Part shown: piece after piece, positions 25,816-37,706 of the stretch | Position numbering within the stretch: the stretch's first letter is position 1 | Layout of the letters: every line of letters starts with the position of its first letter | Source of the DNA: Methanosarcinaceae archaeon | Lineage (GTDB): Archaea; Halobacteriota; Methanosarcinia; Methanosarcinales; Methanosarcinaceae | Length of the DNA: 62,567 bases | NCBI GenBank assembly: GCA_030611265.1 | Contig: JAUWQD010000011.1 | Location: 1-62,567 of the forward strand | Direction: 5' to 3' | Notes under the pieces: generated by a model | Database searches by the model: none | Seen by the model: the letters and a program-made list of their open reading frames with translations, nothing else | What the model was told of the DNA's origin: nothing | Program-made: the position numbers and the translations under genes

Positions 25816-26736
25816 CTACATCTCCTCAAAAATATCCAATATCTGCTTTGAAAGTTCAACACTTACGTCAACAGACTTCATCAGCGTGTCAGCGCGCACA
25901 ACTTCGCATCCAATGTCGTCAAAATCTGATATATCAGCCGTGTCGCGCTCATCGATGACAAATACATCAACAATGTCCTGATAACACATCGCAACACCGA
26001 CAGACGATACCTCTAATCCGCGTGCATCCATGAGTTTCCCTGCCGGACCACTTACAGGTTTTTTGCCGATTATGGGGCTTACTGCAACGACCTTTTTGTG
26101 TTTCAGTATCTCGCGCATCCCGGGCAATTCAAGGATTGGTCCGATACTTGTTATCGGATTACTTGGACCGATCAATACTTCGCCATCCGTCTCAAGTGCC
26201 TCAAGTACGGCAGGTGCAATGGCGGCATCGGAAATACCATCTACTGAAACATCCGCCACATCCGGCTCACCGTGATTCTTGACCCAGAAATCCTGATAAT
26301 GCATTTTACCCTGCGGCGTTGTTATGATTGTGGATACCGGATCGTCTGACATCGGAAGTATGTCTGTTTTTATCCCAAATGCGCCGCAGAGTTTTCGAAT
26401 TGCGGATGTCAGGGTGCCGCCATTTCGTAGAATGTCCGAGCGCATGATGTGGGTCGCGCGGTCAAGGTCGCCGAGCATCATTCCTTCATCGAATCCCGAT
26501 GACTTCATTGTTTCGTGGGTTCGGAATGTGTCTCCTGCGACTCCCCACCATTTTTCCGTGTCGAGCCTGCCTGAGAGCAGGTACAGGATAGTGTCTATAT
26601 CAGGAGTTATGAGGTTACCGGACACCCATACGTCCTCTGCGGTGTTCACAACTATTGTTAGGTCTTTTGGGGGGATTAGGGTGCGAAGTCCGTTTAGGAG
26701 TTTTGGGGTTCCGGTGCCGCCTGAGAGTATTATCAT
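25816..26736 (-). CDS. cofD: 2-phospho-L-lactate transferase (coenzyme F420 biosynthesis)
   Basis: Makes F420-0 by joining the phospholactate (or phosphoenolpyruvate) moiety from the guanylylated donor to the deazaflavin Fo. 306 aa. Family motifs: LSGGTGTPKLLNGLRTL, VNTAEDVWVSGNLITPDIDTILYLLSG, GWWGV-type DTEKWWGVAGDTFRTHETM, LGDLDRATHIMRSDIL and IGPSNPITSIGPILELPGMREIL. Cytoplasmic. ATG 26736 begins the first beta strand. Essential in methanogens because F420 is the main hydride carrier. Confidence 0.96.
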   Translation of the reverse strand: MIILSGGTGTPKLLNGLRTLIPPKDLTIVVNTAEDVWVSGNLITPDIDTILYLLSGRLDTEKWWGVAGDTFRTHETMKSSGFDEGMMLGDLDRATHIMRSDILRNGGTLTSAIRKLCGAFGIKTDILPMSDDPVSTIITTPQGKMHYQDFWVKNHGEPDVADVSVDGISDAAIAPAVLEALETDGEVLIGPSNPITSIGPILELPGMREILKHKKVVAVSPIIGKKPVSGPAGKLMDARGLEVSSVGVAMCYQDIVDVFVIDERDTADISDFDDIGCEVVRADTLMKSVDVSVELSKQILDIFEEM

Positions 26737-26784
26737 TGTTGGTGTTTTCCTTTTTTGTTTGGAATGGATGGCAAAAAATCAACC

Positions 26785-26812
26785 GCAGAGAACGCGGAGA
26801 GCGCAGAGATGT
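26785..26812. repeat. Intergenic AACCGCAGAG-type repeat
   Basis: AACCGCAGAGAACGCGGAGAG, followed by CGCAGAG, belongs to the same style of short CGCAGA-rich units seen at 34285-34335 and 36136-36236. It stands just upstream of cofD. Confidence 0.5.
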
Positions 26813-26880
26813 CCACGTATATGCATCTCTTGTTTGTGATTATATCTATTAGGATTAAGTTCTTTCCTTTCTCACTGCAT

Positions 26881-27020
26881 TATTTTTTTACCATATACAT
26901 CCAATACGCACCGCTGCCAACAATCATTACCACCAGCACACCGACCACATACCAAACCTTTGAGATACCCTCATCGTCCTGCTCCTCTTCACCATCATCA
27001 ACCACGCCCTCGTTTGGCGA
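26881..27020 (-). pseudogene. C-terminal remnant of a membrane-anchored surface protein
   Basis: Reads as an acidic stalk (PNEGVVDDGEEEQDDEGIS) leading to one membrane helix (VWYVVGVLVVMIVGSGAYWMYMV) and a KK tail. This is the typical C-terminal anchor of an archaeal surface protein, but nothing upstream belongs to it: the frame runs straight into the winged-helix fragment on the other strand. About 46 residues remain. Confidence 0.5.
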
Positions 27021-27255
27021 TTGTGCGCCAATGTCATTCAATGAACTTGAAAAAATTATGAGTGCATATCCTGATACACTCAACAAGCGACTAAAAGAGT
27101 TGGTTGAATATAATTTAGTCGAGCCGATGGTTCATGTTGTAGATGGTAAAAACAGGATCAAACATCGGCTAACGCCAAAAGGTAAACAGCTTATGGCAAA
27201 GCTGAATGATTTTATTAAACTTGCAGAAGAACTTGAGTCTAAAATTTTGTTATAG
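27019..27255 (+). pseudogene. Winged-helix (HxlR-like) regulator fragment, copy 1
   Basis: Codes for the C-terminal part of a winged-helix regulator: APMSFNELEKIMSAYPDTLNKRLKELVEYNLVEP, then IKHRLTPKGKQLMAKLNDFI. The first helix is missing and the sequence upstream belongs to a different gene remnant. A related copy lies in the same orientation at 35861-36091; a 32-base stretch at their left ends is identical. A short product from ATG 27031 is possible. Confidence 0.75.
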
Positions 27256-27402
27256 ATTCTATTGATCCAAGATTGTCAAAAAAGTAACAAAACAGAAATG
27301 AGCAACTCTGTTTTTGTATGCCACTTTGTTTGTAATGCCGAATATCACGATTTTGTCAGATTGGTATGATTAATATAGATGTTTTGAGTTAATCATAACA
27401 AT

Positions 27403-28083
27403 ATGTGCAAAGTTAAGAATGAAATTAAAAAATTAACCAATACAATTCAATCGAATATTAAAAAACTAATGATTTTTGTTTTGTTATGTATAGTGGTAAT
27501 TTCTGTTATCCATTACACCCCCAACTCATTCATTTATAAAAATACATTAGGATTGATGAATGTTTCAGTGACTTTTATACTTGCAGTTCTAACCGCAATT
27601 TATGTTCTTCTTACAAAACAAATTGTTTTAGAATCAAGAAAACAAAACAAAATTGCATATATAGAAAAAAGATTGGAGAAACTGTATTATCCCCTACATA
27701 ATTTTATAGAATCGCCTGCAGTATTCAATTTATATTACTATGATGAGATAGATAAGGCATTAGCATTAGAATTCTGCAACAAAGAAAAAGATGAGAAAGA
27801 AGGCAGGAGTTATAATAGACCAGCAGATTCAATTCTTTATGATTGCGATTTACAAAATAATAGTGTGCGAAGGTATGATATTGAAAGTATAATTCCATAC
27901 AAATATCTTGCAACAAAGGAACTATCAAAATTATTAAAATTAATATCAAGTGATTTTTTAGATAACAATCCGATTGAAATTGCTTCGTCTGATCCAGAAT
28001 TTAAAATCAGAATAGATAAAATAAAAGAGATAATTATCAATGATATTAAATCATTTATTGAAGAGCATGATAAACTGTTGTAA
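27403..28083 (+). CDS. Hypothetical membrane protein with cytoplasmic domain
   Basis: 226 aa. Two N-terminal membrane helices (LMIFVLLCIVVISVIHY and MNVSVTFILAVLTAIYVLLTK) are followed by a cytoplasmic domain of about 150 residues starting ESRKQNKIAYIEKRLEKLYYPLHNFI, a segment I associate with uncharacterised archaeal and bacterial membrane proteins in accessory regions. No catalytic motif seen. TATA TTAATATAG is about 30 bases before ATG 27403, giving a nearly leaderless transcript. AT-rich codon use sets it apart from the core genes and suggests acquired DNA. Confidence 0.65.
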   Translation: MCKVKNEIKKLTNTIQSNIKKLMIFVLLCIVVISVIHYTPNSFIYKNTLGLMNVSVTFILAVLTAIYVLLTKQIVLESRKQNKIAYIEKRLEKLYYPLHNFIESPAVFNLYYYDEIDKALALEFCNKEKDEKEGRSYNRPADSILYDCDLQNNSVRRYDIESIIPYKYLATKELSKLLKLISSDFLDNNPIEIASSDPEFKIRIDKIKEIIINDIKSFIEEHDKLL

Positions 28084-28551
28084 TAAAAATATAATCCTTT
28101 TCTTATAGGATGTTAACTTTGAATATTTATTATTCCCCTAACAACATTACTTACTTTTAAATTCAAATTCCCCTCATCCCTTTGTTTTATCTTCAAATCA
28201 CTGATCGTGTACTTTATATTCCACAAGTATATTTTGAAAACAAATCTTTTTCTAAAACATAGAATAATGTTGTATGATTGTGGTTTTTGGAATTTGTATA
28301 TAAATGGTTCGGAATAGCGCATATTAATTTTCTACCGAAGTTGGCAAATCGTATACTCAAAACGTGTATTTCATGCATATATAATATAAATATGACATAT
28401 CAGAAATGTCCAAAACCACTATTAGAAAAGTTTGTTAAATTTTGCAGATATCTGCGGAAAGTGAGCCCTACCCCTAAAAGTAAAATTTAAATAATATAAA
28501 ACATTATATAATAATTATGAGTGAGATTGAATCTATTGAGGAGGTTACATA
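28084..28551. other. 468-base AT-rich intergenic region
   Basis: No gene supported. A 32-codon frame (28392-28490, MTYQKCPKPLLEKFVKFCRYL...) is preceded by CATATATAATATAAAT but has no ribosome site and its TATA lies too near. The right end holds AT-rich promoter-like sequence and GAGGTTAC for the next gene. Confidence 0.4.
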
Positions 28552-28893
28552 ATGGAATATGAATTTGAAGTGTTCTCTCGTCAAAGGGGGCAAAATTATG
28601 TGTACGCAATTGAAAAGATAGATACAGGATGGAAAATAAAACACATTCGGATAAATGAAAATGATGGTAATAGTGACAAGCAGGGAGATCCTTTTTTGTT
28701 CAAAGAATTAGATCATGATTCAATAAATTATCCCGCACATTTAGGAGAGTATATGGAACATTTATGGGACCAAGCTACAGAACAAAATATGAATGATGGA
28801 GAGATACAGGAGCATCTTAATAACCTTGCAAATTGGTGCCAAATCGTAGAAAAGAAATCACCTAATACGCAATTTTGGACAGATTATAAATGA
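28552..28893 (+). CDS. Hypothetical small soluble protein
   Basis: 113 aa, no family recognised. Mostly acidic and polar with aromatic clusters (FEVFSRQRGQNYVYAIEKIDTGWKIKHIRINENDG; HLGEYMEHLWDQATEQ). ATG 28552 has TGAGGAGGTTACATA upstream, the best ribosome site in this part of the island, so the gene is probably real. Its place between the two-helix membrane protein and the large helicase suggests membership of the same accessory cassette, but no function follows from that. Confidence 0.6.
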   Translation: MEYEFEVFSRQRGQNYVYAIEKIDTGWKIKHIRINENDGNSDKQGDPFLFKELDHDSINYPAHLGEYMEHLWDQATEQNMNDGEIQEHLNNLANWCQIVEKKSPNTQFWTDYK

Positions 28894-28980
28894 AAGTTTT
28901 GTGCCATATTTAAGTCATACGTTTACAGAATAAAAGAGAGCTATCTAAAAGTTTGATATTGCAAGACAATACAATTATAT

Positions 28981-29012
28981 TTTACAGGATGCTGCGAACC
29001 AGTCGCATCCTG
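28981..29012. repeat. Short interspersed hairpin repeat, copy 1
   Basis: TTTACAGGATGCTGCGAACC is identical to 34481-34500. CAGGATGC (28985-28992) pairs with GCATCCTG (29005-29012). Confidence 0.8.
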
Positions 29013-29092
29013 TTTAAATATTGCTCCTTGCCCACTCAATATTGAGAAGATCCTTAAAAATGTATTTATATCATAATTTCATTTCTGTTAGT

Positions 29093-29224
29093 ATGCGACT
29101 TCGTATTGACTTGACTAAAAAGGCACCTAAGAAAAAAAATACTCATGAAGAGGTAGGGCCATCTCTTTTTGAGCTTTTAATAGGTATTATAGCCATTATT
29201 ATTATGTGGACATTATTGTATTAA
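29093..29224 (+). CDS. Small single-helix membrane protein
   Basis: 43 aa: a basic N-terminus (MRLRIDLTKKAPKKKNTHEE) and one C-terminal helix (LFELLIGIIAIIIMWTLL). The frame is open upstream to 29021, but ATG 29093 has a TATA-like ATGTATTTATATCA about 28 bases before it, as expected for a leaderless archaeal gene. No family recognised. Tail-anchored layout, cytoplasmic basic domain. Confidence 0.5.
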   Translation: MRLRIDLTKKAPKKKNTHEEVGPSLFELLIGIIAIIIMWTLLY

Positions 29225-29262
29225 TTTTGGTTATTATTTTAGCAATGTTGGCTAAACAATGT

Positions 29263-32200
29263 TTAAACTTCCGAATTTAGATCAATCATTCCATTCAACA
29301 AATGTTGTAATTCTTCTTTTTTAATGAGAGTATGAATTACCCTTTCAATTTGATTTGAAACATTTTCACGAGTCGCTTGGAATCCCAAAAGCCTAGATGT
29401 TTGGACAATTAATTCATCCAATGGCGTAGAAAATTGTTGTTTAAGAACAAATTTAGCTACTTCTGCAATCTCTTCATCGCATATTAATTCTATTTTTGCA
29501 GGTGGATCGCCAGTACGGCGACGAGCTTGAATATTACCGTCACTTATGAAGAGGAAATCTTTTTCGATTGTAATATCACCTTTACTATTTGCAAAATTGG
29601 CAGCTTTATTGATAGCATTAGTAATTTTGCTGCCTGAACGGCCCAAACCTTTGTGAGTACGAATTCTTCTCACAACTTCTTTAAAATGCACGGGACTTTC
29701 CACTTGTACTACTTGAATTACAGATTCAGCAAGTTCCCATGTAGGGATTTCATAAAGTTCAGAAAACATGTCTATGTTAATAGAGGAACACAGTTCATAA
29801 TCAGGAATCGTTTCATCAATTTGATCACTGATTGGTAATTCATTAATATTTTCTTGCTGATTGACATCATCATCCAACATCTGCACAGGGGTATTTTGAG
29901 ACTCCACTTCTATATTAGCCGTTTCTGGTTCATTTTCGATCTCGTTAATCGTCATTTCAATTGCTTCTAGCAAATTTTGTTGACACTCTGCACGATTACG
30001 ATACCAATCAGTTGACCATACACGACATATTTTCCAACCTAAATTTCCAAGTATCTGCTTTCGCAATCGATCTCGGTCTCTTGAAACCGATGATGAGTGA
30101 TATTTTACACCATCACATTCAATTCCTAATAGATAACGACCAGGATATTTTGAATCAACCAAGGCAAGATCAATTTGATATCCTGCACAACCAACTTGCT
30201 TTTGAATATCATATCCTTTACCTTGAAGGAAATCATAAACTGAGTTCTCAAATGAAGACTCAGAGTCCTCATTTCCAGATTCTAAGGTGACCAAATTCCG
30301 ATTTTGTGCAAAATCGAGAAACACTTTTAATGATTTCAAACCAAATGGTGAATCTGCATCAAGTTGTAGATCTTTTGCTTGGAAATTGGAAAATACAACA
30401 CATTTCTCACGAGCACGGGTTATGAGCACATTCAAACGTCGTTCACCACCATCACGGTTAATAGGTCCAAACATTTTGCTTAATTTTCCATCCTTATCAA
30501 AACCAAAACCAATACTTATAAAAATCACATCACGTTCATCACCCTGAATAGTTTCTAAATTTTTCACAAAAAAATGGTCATGGTTTGTGCTTTTAAAGAA
30601 GTTTTCCATTTCGGGCTCATCTCTAAGTTTTAGTTCAATCTCTTCTAAAATTGCTTGTTGCTGATTCATATTGAATGTTCCCACACCAAGACTTTTGTTT
30701 GGATATTTTTTGTAGTGTTCTATTGCTTCTTTTGCTACAGCTTTGGCTTCAATTCGATTTCCACTATTTTTACCTCGAACATAAATTGCATTTGGTAAGT
30801 GAATAAACTTTAATCCCAAATGATCAAGGTTCTCAGTGGCTGATGGATAAAAAACAAGCTGACTATCATAAAATTCTTGATTGGAAACTGCAATTAATGA
30901 TTCGTGTTTGCTACGATAGTGCCAGCGCAAAATATTTTTCTGGAAACTACTTTTGCATAAATGAAGAATACTTTCTATATCTTCAATTGAAGCAGTTTCA
31001 TCTTCATTATCTACTCTGGAATCGACCATACTGTCGAAAAAACTGGTTGGTGGGAGTTGACGTGTATCTCCAATAATGACAGCTTGGTTGGCACGTAAGA
31101 GAGCACCAAACGCATCTTCTGGTTTGACTTGACTTGCTTCATCGAAAACAACAACATCAAAATTAATGTTTTGTGGATCCAAAAACTGTGCAATTGATAA
31201 TGGACTCATCATGAAACATGGCTTAATTTTTTGAATTAATCCACCGGCAGCAATCATTAATTTGCGTATTGGCATGTGTCGGCGTTTTCGATTAAATTCT
31301 CCTTGAAGTATCCCAGCTTCTGAACTTCTTGATGCAACAGCTGATAAACGTGGACGGTTTTGATATAATTTATATGCAAGTCGATGACGATTTTTGACAA
31401 TTAACTGATTGTCAATATCCGTAAAATTCTGAATCTTGTTTTCATGAAGTTTACCAACAAAATTCGCAAGAAACGGCCTATCCATAAAAGCATAGCGAAG
31501 TAATGAATCCGCAAAATTTCCTTCAAAACAAGGAATAATGTCTTCGGAATCAAGATTATCGGAATCAATTTCACTGACAATTGGAGCTGCTATAGTATTC
31601 AGGCAATCTTTGCGTCTTTGAGCAAATTGTCCCCATCGTTGAAGTTTTGGGAGTTCATTTTTCCATAAATCTACACGAGAAAGTAAATTTGAGAATGTGT
31701 TCATTTCAATATCAGATCCAAATATAATTTCCGAATTAGCATTAAGACGGTTCATTAATTTATTGTATTGTTCTGTGAACCGTTTTTCAGCTTTCGAAAT
31801 ATTTTCAATTGAATTTTCGATTTTATCTTTGGATACACCGTTACTGATAACGTCTAAAACACGCTCATCAAAAACTTTTGTTAATAATTGTTGTCTGAAT
31901 GTTACAATCCATTTTGCAAAAGATTCCAACATATTGGAATCACTATTTTCACCTTTCCAATGTGATCCAAAAAAAGCTTCACCTATTTCATTTGAAATTG
32001 CGATTTCATTTTTCAGTTTAATACAAACAAGCAGTTCATTTAGATCAGATATGATATTTTCGGCTTCTTTGGGAGGTGTAGCATTATAGAGGGTAACTAT
32101 AACACGTTTTAATGAGCGATATTTTCCACTCACAAATTTGTGCATAGATGATTTTTCCGAAATTTCAATATATCTGTTTAAAATTGAATCAATGTCTTCT

Positions 32201-34059
32201 GTTAATGAATTTGCATTGAATTTTGAATTTATATCAGGAAGTTGTTTTTGTAATGTTTTGACTTTTTTAATTAACAAGAGCGCAGAATCGTTTGATTCAT
32301 TCCATTCATTATTTGACAAAACATTTTTATCAACGGGTTTTGATGCTGCGATGACTTTTGAAGCTGAAACTGCATGTTTCAACTCATTTAGATTGGTCGG
32401 ACATTGTATTGCACACATTTGAGCAAGCTCATTAATTGCAATATTAAGTTCATCAATTGATACTTTGCAGTTATCAAGCATTTCTCCAATAATATTTTCA
32501 TCAGATGGCAATATAGTATCTGGAGAACATCCATTCCAAGGGTGCACACTTATAGATTTTACTAAAGGTAGTGCTTCTACGATATTAGTTAATGCCAACT
32601 GTGCTGCAGTCCAATCCGTTTGATTATACTCATTTGTATTTTGAAAATCAATGTGTTTCAAAGTTTTACCAATGTTCTCAAAATATTGTATTGAATTTTC
32701 TTTCATACAAAATAAATCGAAAGGAGACTGTCCAAGTTTTCCAATTGGCTCACGTAATGCCTCAGCATAGCCATTTAATTCTTTTTTAAGGGATTCTAAA
32801 TTATCAAAATCATCTGATAATGATTTATTTTGTTGATATTGTATGCTTATTGTACGTTCAAGTTCTTTGAGAACTTCTTTTTTGTTTGATTTTCTACTAT
32901 GCAATTCAAGACAAAAGTCCCCAAGTCCAACATCATCCAATCGATTTTTCACAACTTCAAGTGCTGCCATTTTTTCACTTACAAAAAGCACACTCTTTCC
33001 GGTTGCAAGAAGTTCAGCAATAATATTAGTGATCGTCTGAGATTTACCTGTGCCAGGTGGACCTTCTACAACTAAATTTATTCCAGATTTCACATCTTCA
33101 ATTACTGCTATTTGTGATGGGTCGGCATCCATTACATGGTATTGATCTCGAATATTGAGTGATTTATCAACATCGTCTTCAGAAAAACCAGATTCAAACT
33201 GTTGTTCGTCTGGATCAAATAAAGAAATTATAAGCGGGTGATTTGCAGGTGTTTTCCCATCAGGCCATGCAATTGGATCCAGATCTTTGTACATTACGAA
33301 TTTTGTGAAACTAAAAAAACTTAAGTAGATATTATTCAAGACCCGCCAGTTTGGCATTTTTGAAATTGAATCTGCCACTGATTGGAAATATTGATCTACA
33401 CTGTTTTTATCATCGGGCATTTCAAATTCTGGGAGTGCAATTCCCTGTTCTAATAATTTTGCCTGTAGTGAAATGTTAGTAAAAACATCTTCTCCAGTCC
33501 ATTTTAACTTAAATGTCGTGCCAACTTTGTGACGTTCCAATTCTACGGGTACAAGAATTAAAGGTGCATCTCGGAGTTTGGTAGAACTTGGACTCTCTGT
33601 CCATTCTAAAAACCCTAATGCCAAATATAGAATCGTATATCCCTGTTCTTCAAGGACAGACTTTGCTTGTTGACTGGTGTAAAACAGACGTTTTTGAAGA
33701 TTTTCGCCATCATAAGAAGTTTGTAAAAATCGATCAGTATGCCGGCTAGACATTTCATCATCAGGTGATGGCAATTCCCATAGTTTTGAAGCATCTTCTT
33801 CAGAAATATCAGATTTTAAATACCCCGATTGTTCATCGTCTTGATTTTCATCTTGTTCTGATTCTTGATTTTTTTTCTTAGGAAGAAATTCCATTACTTT
33901 TTCTTGTAATACTAAAAGATCATAAATTTCTGTGGGAATCTCATCAGTAATTCTCATTGTTTTCGCTTTTGTTGAACGAAAGTTTAAGAGATTATTAAAC
34001 ATTGTGAGGTCTAATAAGTTTTGTCGAGCATCTTCTAACTGTTTTTCTATGTTGGTCAT
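29263..34059 (-). CDS. DUF4011/DUF3320-type SF1 helicase with Vsr/DUF559-like nuclease domain
   Basis: 1598-aa multidomain protein. The N-terminal region (LEDARQNLLDLTMFNNLLNFR) matches the DUF4011 start of very large helicase proteins. A superfamily 1 helicase of the DNA2/NAM7 type follows: Walker A VEGPPGTGKSQTITNI (about 331-346), Walker B VVVFDEASQVKPEDA, GDTRQLPP, and motif VI LNVLITRAREKCVVFS. A restriction-endonuclease-like domain comes next: DLALVD, GIECDGVKYHSS, RDRDRLRKQILGNLGWKICRVWSTDWY. The C-terminus holds a DUF3320-like winged domain (VQVESPVHFKEVVRRIRTHKGLGRSG). Proteins with this layout lie in defence islands and are predicted to be single-gene anti-phage or anti-plasmid factors (inference). 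AT-rich and next to an IS element, so acquired. Divergent from no partner gene. Confidence 0.85.
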   Translation of the reverse strand: MTNIEKQLEDARQNLLDLTMFNNLLNFRSTKAKTMRITDEIPTEIYDLLVLQEKVMEFLPKKKNQESEQDENQDDEQSGYLKSDISEEDASKLWELPSPDDEMSSRHTDRFLQTSYDGENLQKRLFYTSQQAKSVLEEQGYTILYLALGFLEWTESPSSTKLRDAPLILVPVELERHKVGTTFKLKWTGEDVFTNISLQAKLLEQGIALPEFEMPDDKNSVDQYFQSVADSISKMPNWRVLNNIYLSFFSFTKFVMYKDLDPIAWPDGKTPANHPLIISLFDPDEQQFESGFSEDDVDKSLNIRDQYHVMDADPSQIAVIEDVKSGINLVVEGPPGTGKSQTITNIIAELLATGKSVLFVSEKMAALEVVKNRLDDVGLGDFCLELHSRKSNKKEVLKELERTISIQYQQNKSLSDDFDNLESLKKELNGYAEALREPIGKLGQSPFDLFCMKENSIQYFENIGKTLKHIDFQNTNEYNQTDWTAAQLALTNIVEALPLVKSISVHPWNGCSPDTILPSDENIIGEMLDNCKVSIDELNIAINELAQMCAIQCPTNLNELKHAVSASKVIAASKPVDKNVLSNNEWNESNDSALLLIKKVKTLQKQLPDINSKFNANSLTEDIDSILNRYIEISEKSSMHKFVSGKYRSLKRVIVTLYNATPPKEAENIISDLNELLVCIKLKNEIAISNEIGEAFFGSHWKGENSDSNMLESFAKWIVTFRQQLLTKVFDERVLDVISNGVSKDKIENSIENISKAEKRFTEQYNKLMNRLNANSEIIFGSDIEMNTFSNLLSRVDLWKNELPKLQRWGQFAQRRKDCLNTIAAPIVSEIDSDNLDSEDIIPCFEGNFADSLLRYAFMDRPFLANFVGKLHENKIQNFTDIDNQLIVKNRHRLAYKLYQNRPRLSAVASRSSEAGILQGEFNRKRRHMPIRKLMIAAGGLIQKIKPCFMMSPLSIAQFLDPQNINFDVVVFDEASQVKPEDAFGALLRANQAVIIGDTRQLPPTSFFDSMVDSRVDNEDETASIEDIESILHLCKSSFQKNILRWHYRSKHESLIAVSNQEFYDSQLVFYPSATENLDHLGLKFIHLPNAIYVRGKNSGNRIEAKAVAKEAIEHYKKYPNKSLGVGTFNMNQQQAILEEIELKLRDEPEMENFFKSTNHDHFFVKNLETIQGDERDVIFISIGFGFDKDGKLSKMFGPINRDGGERRLNVLITRAREKCVVFSNFQAKDLQLDADSPFGLKSLKVFLDFAQNRNLVTLESGNEDSESSFENSVYDFLQGKGYDIQKQVGCAGYQIDLALVDSKYPGRYLLGIECDGVKYHSSSVSRDRDRLRKQILGNLGWKICRVWSTDWYRNRAECQQNLLEAIEMTINEIENEPETANIEVESQNTPVQMLDDDVNQQENINELPISDQIDETIPDYELCSSINIDMFSELYEIPTWELAESVIQVVQVESPVHFKEVVRRIRTHKGLGRSGSKITNAINKAANFANSKGDITIEKDFLFISDGNIQARRRTGDPPAKIELICDEEIAEVAKFVLKQQFSTPLDELIVQTSRLLGFQATRENVSNQIERVIHTLIKKEELQHLLNGMIDLNSEV

Positions 34060-34276
34060 TGTAAATTATTCCTCACATGTTTGTTACAATTTCAATTGTA
34101 AAAAAACTGTATTTTATAAATATAAAAATGAAAATATTCGCATGTTTATCTACATACTTAGATAATTATACATAAAACTTTTGAGTTTGTTTTAAATTAT
34201 GTGTGCAAACTATTATCTTCGCCACATTCGTTGCGATGTATACTAAACCATTATCGTTTTTTGTAACTTTCTATCA

Positions 34277-34336
34277 CAGAGGATACAGGGGGGGAAAGTT
34301 GCTACAATCTCTGTGTCCTCTGTGCTCTCTGTGGCC
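34277..34336. repeat. CACAGAGGA-type inverted repeat
   Basis: CACAGAGGATACAG (34277-34290) faces CTCTGTGTCCTCTGTGCTCTCTG further on. The unit is of the same type as the CGCAGAG repeats near 26785. Confidence 0.55.
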
Positions 34337-34464
34337 GTATTTCCACTCACAAGAGACGATACGTATTTTTTATAATGAACCTCTGAGGTCATTTGCTGTT
34401 CAAAATTATACTTGCGGAGTGGCATATTTATTGTTTTCATTCACTCCATTGATTGTAATTATTT

Positions 34465-34533
34465 GACCGGATGCACAGGATTTACAGGATGCTGCGAACC
34501 GGTCATATCCTGTCCATCCTGTAAATCCGGTCC
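34465..34533. repeat. Short interspersed hairpin repeat, copy 2
   Basis: GGATTTACAGGATG (34478-34491) and its exact complement CATCCTGTAAATCC (34515-34528) flank a 23-base loop; ACCGGAT and ATCCGGT extend the symmetry outside. The left part shares 20 identical bases with 28981-29000. Confidence 0.85.
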
Positions 34534-34545
34534 ATAAATTCAGAC

Positions 34546-35813
34546 TCAGTACTTAGCTAATTTTCAAATCAACTTTGGCAATTTTATACTAATCGACACC
34601 TTTATAAGCCGCGCAAGCGCCGCCATATGGTATCCAAATCACATAACGTCGCTTGCAATCCTAGAATGGAATTGAGATCTAAAGAATGTATCGATAACGT
34701 ACTACAACCACTTATTGATCATATCAACTTGCCAATTAATGGTTCGCTTACCAGCAAAGATCTTTATCATACTATCATCAGTATGGCAGTTGATAAGAAT
34801 TCAGTCCATTCCATATCGAAACGATATCAAAATGTTCCTTGCGAAACATCAATCAGATATCATCTTAAAAAACTCAACATCAATGAACTCATTGAATCAA
34901 ATGAAAAGATACTCATGCAAATGGCTATTCAAAATTTGAAACCCAATAAAGAATATGAATTTGCCATTGATTACACCAATGATCCTTATTATGGAAAAAT
35001 CAACACTTCAAATGATAAATATGTGATCCGTGGACAGGCTAAAAAGTCAACAAATTCGTTTTACTCATACATATCACTCTACATAATCAACAAAAATGAA
35101 CGATTCACGATAGCCGTTCTTCCAGTGGAAAAGGGGAAATCAAAAGTTGAATATCTTGAATATTTTATTGATCAAATCAAGATATTGGATTTTGGGATCA
35201 AAATCATCTGTTTAGACCGAGAGTTCTATACAGTCGATGTGTTTGATCATTTACAAAAATACAATATTCCGCATATAGTGCCTGTTGTCAAAAAAGGATA
35301 TAAAATTAAGAAAATACTCACTGGAAATAAGAGTCGAATGGACACTTATACAATGAAAAATTCCAACAAAAAAGTTGATCTGGATATTGCCATTGATGTC
35401 AAATATATGAGGGGGAAAAGAGGAAAAAATGGATGTGAGAACCTTGGTTTTGTTGTGCATGGTATTAAGTGGTCGCCAAGAAAAGTCAGTTCTACTTACA
35501 GAAGAAGATTTGCGATTGAGTCATCATACAGGATGAGGAATCAGGTTAAACCAAAGACTTCATCTAAAAACGCTACGATAAGATATTTTTATGCGCTGAT
35601 TTCATTTTTGCTCAAAAATATATGGCTATGCCTTCAAAGAAAGCATTTTACGATTGTTAAAGCAGGACCACCTACTGTAAACGAAGATTTGTTTAGATTT
35701 GATGTGTTTATACTTCTAATTGAAGAATGGGTGAGAAGAAAATTAATAATAAGGCGAGTAGTGGGGTGTATTCGATGAGGGATTTAGTGAAGGAGAAATT
35801 AGTGAACTACTGA
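34546..35813 (+). mobile_element. ISH3-type insertion sequence with imperfect terminal inverted repeats
   Basis: About 1268 bp. Left end TCAGTACTTAGCTAATTT (34546-34563) matches the complement of the right end, TCAGTAGTTCACTAATTT, at 15 of 18 positions. One transposase gene fills the inside. Flanking bases do not give an obvious target duplication, so the insertion is probably old. The right end lies within the 5' part of the winged-helix copy 2, which it truncates. Confidence 0.75.
34627..35778 (+). CDS. ISH3-family transposase
   Basis: 383-aa DDE transposase. Catalytic acidic residues are seen in EFAIDYTNDPYYGKI (first Asp), IICLDREFYTVDVF (second Asp) and RRFAIESSYRMRNQVKPKTSS (Glu with the Y-R pattern typical of the IS4-like/ISH3 group). 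The N-terminal part holds a helix-turn-helix-like region. ATG 34627 fits; TATA-like CCTTTATAAGC lies about 25 bases before it. The frame is intact, so the element could still be active, though its ends have diverged. Confidence 0.88.
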   Translation: MVSKSHNVACNPRMELRSKECIDNVLQPLIDHINLPINGSLTSKDLYHTIISMAVDKNSVHSISKRYQNVPCETSIRYHLKKLNINELIESNEKILMQMAIQNLKPNKEYEFAIDYTNDPYYGKINTSNDKYVIRGQAKKSTNSFYSYISLYIINKNERFTIAVLPVEKGKSKVEYLEYFIDQIKILDFGIKIICLDREFYTVDVFDHLQKYNIPHIVPVVKKGYKIKKILTGNKSRMDTYTMKNSNKKVDLDIAIDVKYMRGKRGKNGCENLGFVVHGIKWSPRKVSSTYRRRFAIESSYRMRNQVKPKTSSKNATIRYFYALISFLLKNIWLCLQRKHFTIVKAGPPTVNEDLFRFDVFILLIEEWVRRKLIIRRVVGCIR

Positions 35814-35826
35814 TCCTATGCGATTG

Positions 35827-36091
35827 CATATTTAACGGTCAACCTCATTTTACTCGAACGTGCGCCAATGTCATTCAATGAACTTGAAAAAACCGTGGGC
35901 GCGTATCCTGATACACTCAACAAGCGGTTAAAATAAATGCTCCAATACGATCTGGTCGAACCGACCGTGGATGTCGTTGGAGGAAAAAACAGGATCAAAC
36001 ATCGGTTGACAGGGAAAGGGGAAAAACTGATGCCGCAGGTCAAGGAATTCGCCAAATGTGGGGAAGAACTTGAATTGGGGATATTTTCATA
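35827..36091 (+). pseudogene. Winged-helix regulator fragment, copy 2, with premature stop
   Basis: Reads YLTVNLILLERAPMSFNELEKTVGAYPDTLNKRLK, then a TAA where copy 1 has GAG, then MLQYDLVEPTVDVV and IKHRLTGKGEKLMPQVKEF. The N-terminus is cut by the right end of the IS. It is a close relative of copy 1 (27019-27255) in the same orientation. The protein type is a HxlR-like winged helix. Confidence 0.82.
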
Positions 36092-36135
36092 GGGTGCGGA
36101 TTTTTTTGATTTGATTAACTGAACAAAGCAACAAC

Positions 36136-36236
36136 ATCTGCGTTCATCTGCGTTTATTTGCGGTTAAATTGTAATTAGTTGATGCCGCGTATAAAATCAA
36201 AAAAATAACCGCAGATGCACGCGGATGGACGCAGAT
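36136..36236. repeat. AACCGCAGATG-type inverted repeat
   Basis: A 31-bp arm (36136-36166, starting ATCTGCGTTCATCTGCG) faces an imperfect complement (36206-36236, ending GGACGCAGAT) around about 39 bases. Roughly 26 of 31 positions pair. Confidence 0.75.
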
Positions 36237-36403
36237 GCGCTCCGCGCTGTTTTGTGTTTAACATTTTATGTCGTTTTCGTCACACCAATCGACATCGATT
36301 GAAGAAATATCAGACAGGATTTATGGGATGAATTGGATTTCCACCCGAACCTTCAACGTTATACTGTCAATCCAATCCAAAATCAAACCTTTTTCATTTA
36401 ATG

Positions 36404-36510
36404 GAGGCTGTCCACCAATTCAAAATTTCTAGAAAAATAAGGTCAAATATGGTTTTAAATCGAAAAATAAGGAACCGTTTTGTCGCTCATAGTAATTGGT
36501 GGACAGCCTC
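36404..36510. mobile_element. 107-bp MITE with 17-bp terminal inverted repeats
   Basis: GAGGCTGTCCACCAATT (36404-36420) is perfectly repeated in reverse at 36494-36510. AATG stands on both sides (36400-36403 and 36511-36514), a 4-bp target duplication. The 73-base core has no coding potential. It is a non-autonomous element moved by a transposase not encoded here. Confidence 0.88.
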
Positions 36511-36657
36511 AATGAATCAGAAGTACTGTACAACTGTAAAATGTTATATATAATGCAGAACCTTTCATAAATTATATATTGCTTAAGCATACCTTTTGTA
36601 TGGGAATTCACATACAGTTTTCAGACGTAATTATAATCAAGGATCACAAGGGATATC

Positions 36658-36924
36658 ATGCGCGCAGAGATTACATCACTATTTGGATTGAACGTTTACA
36701 CCGATGTGGGGACATACATAGGAAAAGTCAGCGATCTTGTACTTGATGCAACTGCCCGGAAAGTTAGCGGGCTTGCTATTTCAGACATTAATCGCGAGGT
36801 ATTTGAGGTTCCTACCAAGGGAGTGATCATACCGTATAGATGGGTTATGACAACAGGTGACATTGTGATCATCAGGGATGTTGTCAAAAAGTTCAGTCCG
36901 CCTAAAGAGACGGAAGAGCAATAA
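36658..36924 (+). CDS. PRC-barrel domain protein
   Basis: 88-aa single PRC-barrel: MRAEITSLFGLNVYTDVGTYIGKVSDLVLDATARKVSGLAI followed by IPYRWVMTTGDIVIIRDVV. In archaea such stand-alone barrels are widespread and have been tied to RNA processing and to cell division (the CdpB-type proteins of some groups). The small size and the neighbourhood do not distinguish between these. ATG 36658 has an AAGGGATATC leader. It marks the return to core genes after the island. Confidence 0.85.
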   Translation: MRAEITSLFGLNVYTDVGTYIGKVSDLVLDATARKVSGLAISDINREVFEVPTKGVIIPYRWVMTTGDIVIIRDVVKKFSPPKETEEQ

Positions 36925-36980
36925 TATTAACGAGAAAATTCCCCTCCGGTCGAATTATATAATTCTATAAATTATATACT

Positions 36981-37706
36981 ATGAAAAGGCGAGAGATCTA
37001 TGCCGATCTGCGTTGCGCGCCGCCTGTGATCATACGCGTTGACGGCAGGAATTTTAAGAATGCGCTGTCACGTCTGGATTTTGAAAAACCATACGATGAG
37101 CGGTTCGCATCTGCAATGGCGGACAGCGTTGAACTTTTTTTCAAAAAAAGCGGCATGAGTCCCGTGTTTGCTTACATGTTTTCGGACGAGATAAATTTCC
37201 TGTTCACAGACACTTCTTTTAACGAACGTGTTGAAAAACTCGATTCAATTATTCCAAGTTATATCAGCAGTGCCCTCACTATGCTACTTGATCTGGATGA
37301 ACCCATTTCATTTGATTCAAGGATCGTCCCTATAAACCGCGACCAGATAATTGAATACCTGATATGGCGTCAGCGTGAGGCATGGAGGAACTGTGTCAGT
37401 TCATACGGATATTACACGCTGCGGTCTGAGGGTTTGAGCGAGGTTGAGGCTGCGGCGCAGATGAAAGGAAAAAAAGCCGCCAGTGTGCATGAGTTGTTGT
37501 TTGAAAGGGGGATAAATCTTGCAAAGATTCCCCCGTGGCAGCGGCGAGGGGTTGTGATTCACAAGGAAGGGTATGTCATCGAGGGATTTAATCCGGTGGA
37601 AAATGTGGAAACAGAATCCATGCGTACAAGGGTGGTTCAAAACTGGGATGTCCCGATTTTCAATTCAGATGAAGGAAATGCATTTTTGAACGAACTCATC
37701 ATTTAA
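36981..37706 (+). CDS. thg1: tRNA(His) guanylyltransferase/Thg1-like 3'-5' polymerase
   Basis: Adds nucleotides to the 5' end of RNA in the 3'-to-5' direction; archaeal forms repair tRNA 5' ends in a template-dependent way. 241 aa. Family motifs: MKRREIYADLRCAPPVIIRVDGRNF with metal-binding Asp, YMFSDEINFLF with the second acidic pair, and the tail WRQREAWRNCVSSYGYYTLR. ATG 36981 has the TATA-like CTATAAATTATATA about 20 bases before, suggesting a leaderless transcript. It lies just upstream of tyrS in the same direction. Confidence 0.93.
   Translation: MKRREIYADLRCAPPVIIRVDGRNFKNALSRLDFEKPYDERFASAMADSVELFFKKSGMSPVFAYMFSDEINFLFTDTSFNERVEKLDSIIPSYISSALTMLLDLDEPISFDSRIVPINRDQIIEYLIWRQREAWRNCVSSYGYYTLRSEGLSEVEAAAQMKGKKAASVHELLFERGINLAKIPPWQRRGVVIHKEGYVIEGFNPVENVETESMRTRVVQNWDVPIFNSDEGNAFLNELII

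Follow-up and report, generated by a model that had tools for sequence, protein, structure and literature searches.

Several described families are relevant to the large helicase-nuclease analysed here. PDC-S37 is a single-gene candidate defence family in the PADLOC collection. A literature search returned nothing on PDC-S37, including no direct defence test of it, and nothing on "ProA" as a defence name; archaeal PDCs are mostly unvalidated (PMC12988326). ProA is the name given in NCBIfam to an anti-phage protein (NF058533). Hhe, an anti-phage protein with a DUF4011 domain (NF042953; PADLOC PDLC02194), is called "Gao Hhe" in PMC11291487. In MTES_1575, Anantharaman and colleagues (PMC3710099) described a Vsr-like nuclease and recognised DUF3320 as a winged helix; proteins of this type combine an SF1 helicase, a Vsr REase and two winged helices, and MTES_1575 additionally has HEPN and transglutaminase domains. 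A related SF1 core is also present in the MkoA and MkoC helicases of Mokosh.

The window, i.e., the whole stretch of 62,567 nucleotides from contig JAUWQD010000011.1 of a Methanosarcinaceae archaeon, encodes on its minus strand a protein of 1598 aa (29263–34059). According to the Pfam analysis, this protein contains, with scores above the cut-offs, a DUF4011 domain (residues 14–202, 148.8 bits), the helicase halves AAA_11 and AAA_12, a Vsr-like REase_MTES_1575 nuclease domain (residues 1270–1367, 121 bits; 29959–30252, minus strand), and DUF3320, a winged helix-turn-helix after PMC3710099 (residues 1434–1480, 44 bits; 29620–29760, minus strand). The architecture given in the preliminary description, namely a DUF4011-type start, an SF1 helicase, an REase-like nuclease and a DUF3320-like end, was confirmed in all its parts.

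The PADLOC profile of PDC-S37 matched the protein over its whole length (1803.5 bits; residues 2–1592 aligned to positions 2–1544 of 1550), and the next PADLOC family, Hhe, reached 716 bits. PDC-S37 was likewise the best PADLOC match for five sampled relatives, including a second copy from the same genome and one from Brockarchaeota. The NCBIfam ProA profile aligned with nearly the whole helicase (residues 4–1561 to positions 356–1902 of 1903), but its first 355 positions had no match, and the score of 1391.3 bits was under the curated cut-off of 1500. Hhe has the SF1 helicase, nuclease halves and DUF4011 in common with the window protein but constitutes a separate sequence group (NF042953, 1071 bits, curated cut-off 2000). 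Because the PDC-S37 match is full length, while the ProA and Hhe scores miss their curated cut-offs, the helicase is filed under PDC-S37 and not under ProA or Hhe. Judged by its sequence, it belongs to a single-gene candidate family that has already been catalogued, and the word "undescribed" used for it earlier does not apply. No difference from PDC-S37 was seen in the protein itself; what sets the window copy apart is that the insertion carrying it also holds small genes unrelated to it. An archaeal gene is thereby tied to an existing, largely unvalidated defence candidate. The order of nuclease and then DUF3320/wHTH after the helicase is the same as in MTES_1575-type proteins; the HEPN and transglutaminase domains of MTES_1575 were not matched in the window helicase by Pfam. 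Similarity to MkoA and MkoC amounted to 73–85 bits (PADLOC), with a different architecture. The same genome additionally encodes a 1559-aa SF1 helicase (L203:1507-6183, minus strand) that is nearer to Mokosh MkoA/MkoC than the window protein is.

The catalytic motifs of the window helicase, including Walker A and B, motifs III–VI, and D1297, E1314 and D1316 of the nuclease, are all intact. The predicted Walker A (G333–S340) and the E-C-D nuclease motif (E1314-C1315-D1316) were both found. Conservation was read from blastp alignments with 76–80 relatives. The Walker A lysine K339 was kept in 79 of 79 relatives and the motif II aspartate D973 in 79 of 80, and motifs III to VI were essentially invariant. 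In the nuclease, D1297 (76/76) and D1316 (77/77) were strictly kept, and E1314 was less strict (67/77). In its SF1 core, the protein is similar to UPF1-like helicases, among them IGHMBP2 and SEN1.

The helicase is interrupted between motifs I and II by a stretch of about 500 aa (residues 400–905; 31345–32862, minus strand), for which AlphaFold2 gives a confident all-helical model (pLDDT 91.8). Foldseek found no significant match to this model in the PDB (best E 0.02). Part of this insert (query residues 506–813) occurs twice in the Methanococcoides copies L104 and L132. The model of the DUF4011 domain and helicase start (residues 1–312; 33124–34059, minus strand; pLDDT 78) showed no clear PDB fold match (Foldseek best E 0.38, VIA-align best Z 2.6); these searches were uninformative and say nothing beyond that on the DUF4011 fold.

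The distribution of the helicase is patchy. Among 150 related genomes it was found in 36, the window's own included, and it was detected in none of the six other genomes of the same genus. It is also present on plasmids of many bacteria, one plasmid copy adjoining a SIR2 gene and another adjoining DUF262 genes; pattern searches of viral contigs for the helicase, the 226-aa and the 113-aa proteins found no relatives. The second copy in the same genome (L061, on contig G000:C49) is 60% identical and has different neighbours. This second copy (L061:541-5313) shares 93% identity with a helicase from a 5.2-kb contig assigned to an Omnitrophota bin (L073:192-4961), and a helicase from an ANME-2 bin is also close to it; either recent transfer or misbinning would explain this.

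Defence genes adjoin the helicase in several of its closest relatives; the loci were selected as examples and do not amount to a test of enrichment. PglZ and BrxL are encoded directly upstream in Methanoperedens (L075), and PglX, BrxC (BREX) and a UvrD-type helicase are encoded nearby in Methanococcoides (L132). In Methanolobus (L072), JetA and JetC (Wadjet) lie beside the helicase, and in Brocadiaceae (L076) a type II REase and an MTase are located upstream. PDC-S37 thus gains a defence-island context in Methanolobus, Methanoperedens and Methanococcoides. Many other relatives, in fact the majority, carry the helicase among housekeeping genes, as in Methanosarcina (EamA, TatC), Methanocorpusculum and Poribacteria; in Methanosarcina and Poribacteria, these surroundings are stable.

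Taken together, the best overall reading, which we regard as likely, is that of a known single-gene candidate, PDC-S37, with unrelated neighbours. The helicase-nuclease itself is probably a defence gene, since it matches PDC-S37, its closest relatives adjoin BREX, Wadjet or R-M genes, its presence is patchy, and it lies in an inserted island. The defence role proposed in the preliminary description stands in this form for the helicase alone and falls for a multi-gene system. Most likely, the protein would work by itself as an innate enzyme against viruses or plasmids. The UPF1/IGHMBP2-like SF1 motor would load on abnormal invading nucleic acid, such as free ends, ssDNA or replication structures; recognition of the invading nucleic acid, or restraint of the nuclease, might fall to the DUF4011, helical and winged-helix parts; and ATP-driven translocation would then deliver the Vsr-like nuclease, which would cut the invader. 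This specific order, sensing followed by cutting, is put forward tentatively, at slightly less than an even chance. Since PDC-S37 members are present in cultured Methanosarcina, the function can be tested there.

The chief rival is an enzyme of DNA repair, recombination or nucleic-acid quality control that has no dedicated immune role and is mobile only through its region. The stable housekeeping loci in Methanosarcina and Poribacteria would also fit such genome maintenance and speak against the defence reading. This rival also draws on the likeness of the SF1 core to UPF1-like helicases such as IGHMBP2 and SEN1, and on a uvrC gene, assigned by sequence recognition only, that immediately precedes the helicase in Methanococcoides L104. 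Nevertheless, we consider this alternative unlikely, given that the helicase is missing from all six other genomes of the genus and from most relatives, that its closest relatives lie within BREX, Wadjet or R-M clusters, and that it travels on bacterial plasmids.

According to another alternative, the helicase pairs with a UvrD/GajB-like SF1A helicase in near relatives, and the window copy has lost this partner. In three archaeal relatives, L072, L121 and L132, a UvrD-like gene does lie immediately upstream of the helicase, in the first two on the same strand; in L132 it is on the opposite strand, and neither copy in the window's genome has such a gene beside it. As it adjoins the helicase at only three of about 80 loci, the UvrD-like gene was rejected as an obligatory partner, and the lost-partner reading is highly improbable. 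Clustering of 906 neighbour ORFs revealed only lineage-specific synteny (EamA/TatC in Methanosarcina, an ABC transporter in Methanocorpusculum, an enolase-like protein in Poribacteria; names by sequence recognition) and no conserved partner of the helicase. No neighbour family recurs across distant loci, which is consistent with a single-gene PDC-S37 that has no obligatory partner.

The helicase lies in an AT-rich inserted segment (26771–36322; G+C 33.7%, vs. 43.1% and 41.2% on its two sides) that the same-genus sister genome G003 lacks between its cofD and PRC-barrel/Thg1 genes. The distance from cofD to thg1 is 881 bases in G003 and about 10.2 kb in the window. On the left, homology with G003 extends to 26749 (to 26770 for another genome, G001), and on the right it restarts at 36323; the extra DNA amounts to about 9.55 kb, in place of which G003 has about 310 bases not shared with the window. 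As regards gain in the window versus loss in G003, the comparison rests on one sister genome. A clean presence/absence site adjoining cofD and thg1 is thus added for PDC-S37. Inside the insertion, a gene for an ISH3-family transposase was identified (34627–35778, plus strand; NF033541, 312 bits, cut-off 225). Near the ends of the insertion there are two HxlR-like gene pieces (27018–27255 and 35855–36092), 73% identical and equally truncated, which may mark how the insertion arose. An Rfam search of 26500–37100 gave nothing at the gathering score. In Methanococcoides seepicolus (L104:4911-15712), the helicase is located about 3 kb from Thg1-TyrRS genes and is divergent from Thg1, as in the window; a shared insertion site and coincidence are both possible.

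In addition to the helicase, three small ORFs were considered, all on the plus strand, as the preliminary description had it; those of 226 and 113 aa were present where it placed them. The 226-aa protein (27403–28083) has two hydrophobic segments (near residues 14–44 and 48–77), in agreement with its designation as a two-helix membrane protein. It belongs to an orphan family dispersed in Methanosarcinales; its homologues are scattered, and their gene context is devoid of any pattern.

The ORF of the 113-aa soluble protein (28552–28893) has the sequence GGAGGT a few nucleotides upstream of the ATG, which bears out the reported ribosome site. The view that none of the small proteins is of known family does not hold for this one. 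Alone, it scores 26.9 bits against PF21648, just under the curated Pfam cut-off of 27; its homologue L069 scores 31.8 bits, and a profile built from the 113-aa protein and two homologues aligns with PDB 3FY6 over the entire length (E 3e-7). Its likeness to this integron cassette protein (PF21648/3FY6) is accordingly that of a three-homologue profile. Each of the two homologues is a portion of a longer protein whose gene stands between hsdS and hsdR in a type I R-M operon of a Methanosarcinaceae relative, G042 in one case and G019 in the other; in G042, hsdM, S and R were confirmed by PADLOC. The 113-aa protein may therefore be defence-linked in its own right, though not via the window helicase. 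In proteins flanked by hsdS and hsdR (L069:9481-10818, L070:9492-10858), the PF21648-like domain is followed by a region (FLDVLGWKGIY...) that looks cyclase-like by eye only; neither Pfam nor PADLOC names such a domain.

The supposed 43-aa tail-anchored protein corresponds to an open frame with a hydrophobic C-terminus (29093–29224), but the frame is not established as a gene. It is an ATG frame nested in a 67-aa TTG frame, and an ATG ORF of at least 43 aa arises in 22% of dinucleotide shuffles of the 369-base interval. No Shine-Dalgarno sequence precedes it, and no credible homologue was found in the 150 related genomes (best other E 0.08 per genome). For want of a homologue, an initial reading of this frame as a Sec61-beta-like tail anchor was abandoned.

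The small ORFs and the helicase are convergent on opposite strands and therefore share no common transcript or operon. Between the 226- and 113-aa genes, positions 28219–28465 belong to a dispersed repeat that the genome carries in 19 places, counting this one. Proteins similar to the 226-aa one occur in 30 and those similar to the 113-aa one in 4 of the 150 related genomes (own genome counted in both cases). When match positions were compared, no such match outside the window shared a contig with a helicase match at a distance of 40 kb or less. A tblastn search of 80 helicase loci, some of them short owing to contig ends, with all three small proteins gave nothing except one noise match (E 0.86), and none of the three genes lies beside the second helicase copy (L061). 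The small genes are, as part of the same likely reading, independent passengers of the insertion that carries the helicase, and do not form a new multi-gene defence system with it. The idea that membrane and small proteins alongside a nuclease are themselves a sign of defence found no evidence here, given the opposite strands and the repeat separating two of the genes.

It is still conceivable that the PDC-S37 helicase recruited the 113-aa protein as a trans-acting regulator or immunity factor, so that the two would form a defence unit peculiar to this lineage, but we consider this very improbable, even more so than the lost UvrD-like partner. The multi-gene defence cassette of the helicase with the 226-, 113- and 43-aa products, as first proposed, could draw on the closeness of all the genes in one AT-rich insertion and on the domain of the 113-aa protein encoded within type I R-M operons elsewhere, but in view of the convergent strands, the intervening repeat, and the lack of co-occurrence at the 80 loci, beside the L061 paralogue and near helicases in the 150 genomes, it is the least probable of all the readings, and this lead is removed as false.

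Several minor features of the locus were also observed. One copy of the dispersed repeat shares a contig with the second helicase copy. At 28518–28553, there is an 11-codon frame (ATG...TAA) that overlaps the start of the 113-aa ORF by TAATG; it is possibly a leader peptide or merely the ribosome-site region. Finally, a small MITE-like element is located at 36406–36516; its ends are inverted (GAGGCTGTCCACCAATT), it is accompanied by a duplication of four bases (AATG), and the corresponding site is empty in the sister genome G003.
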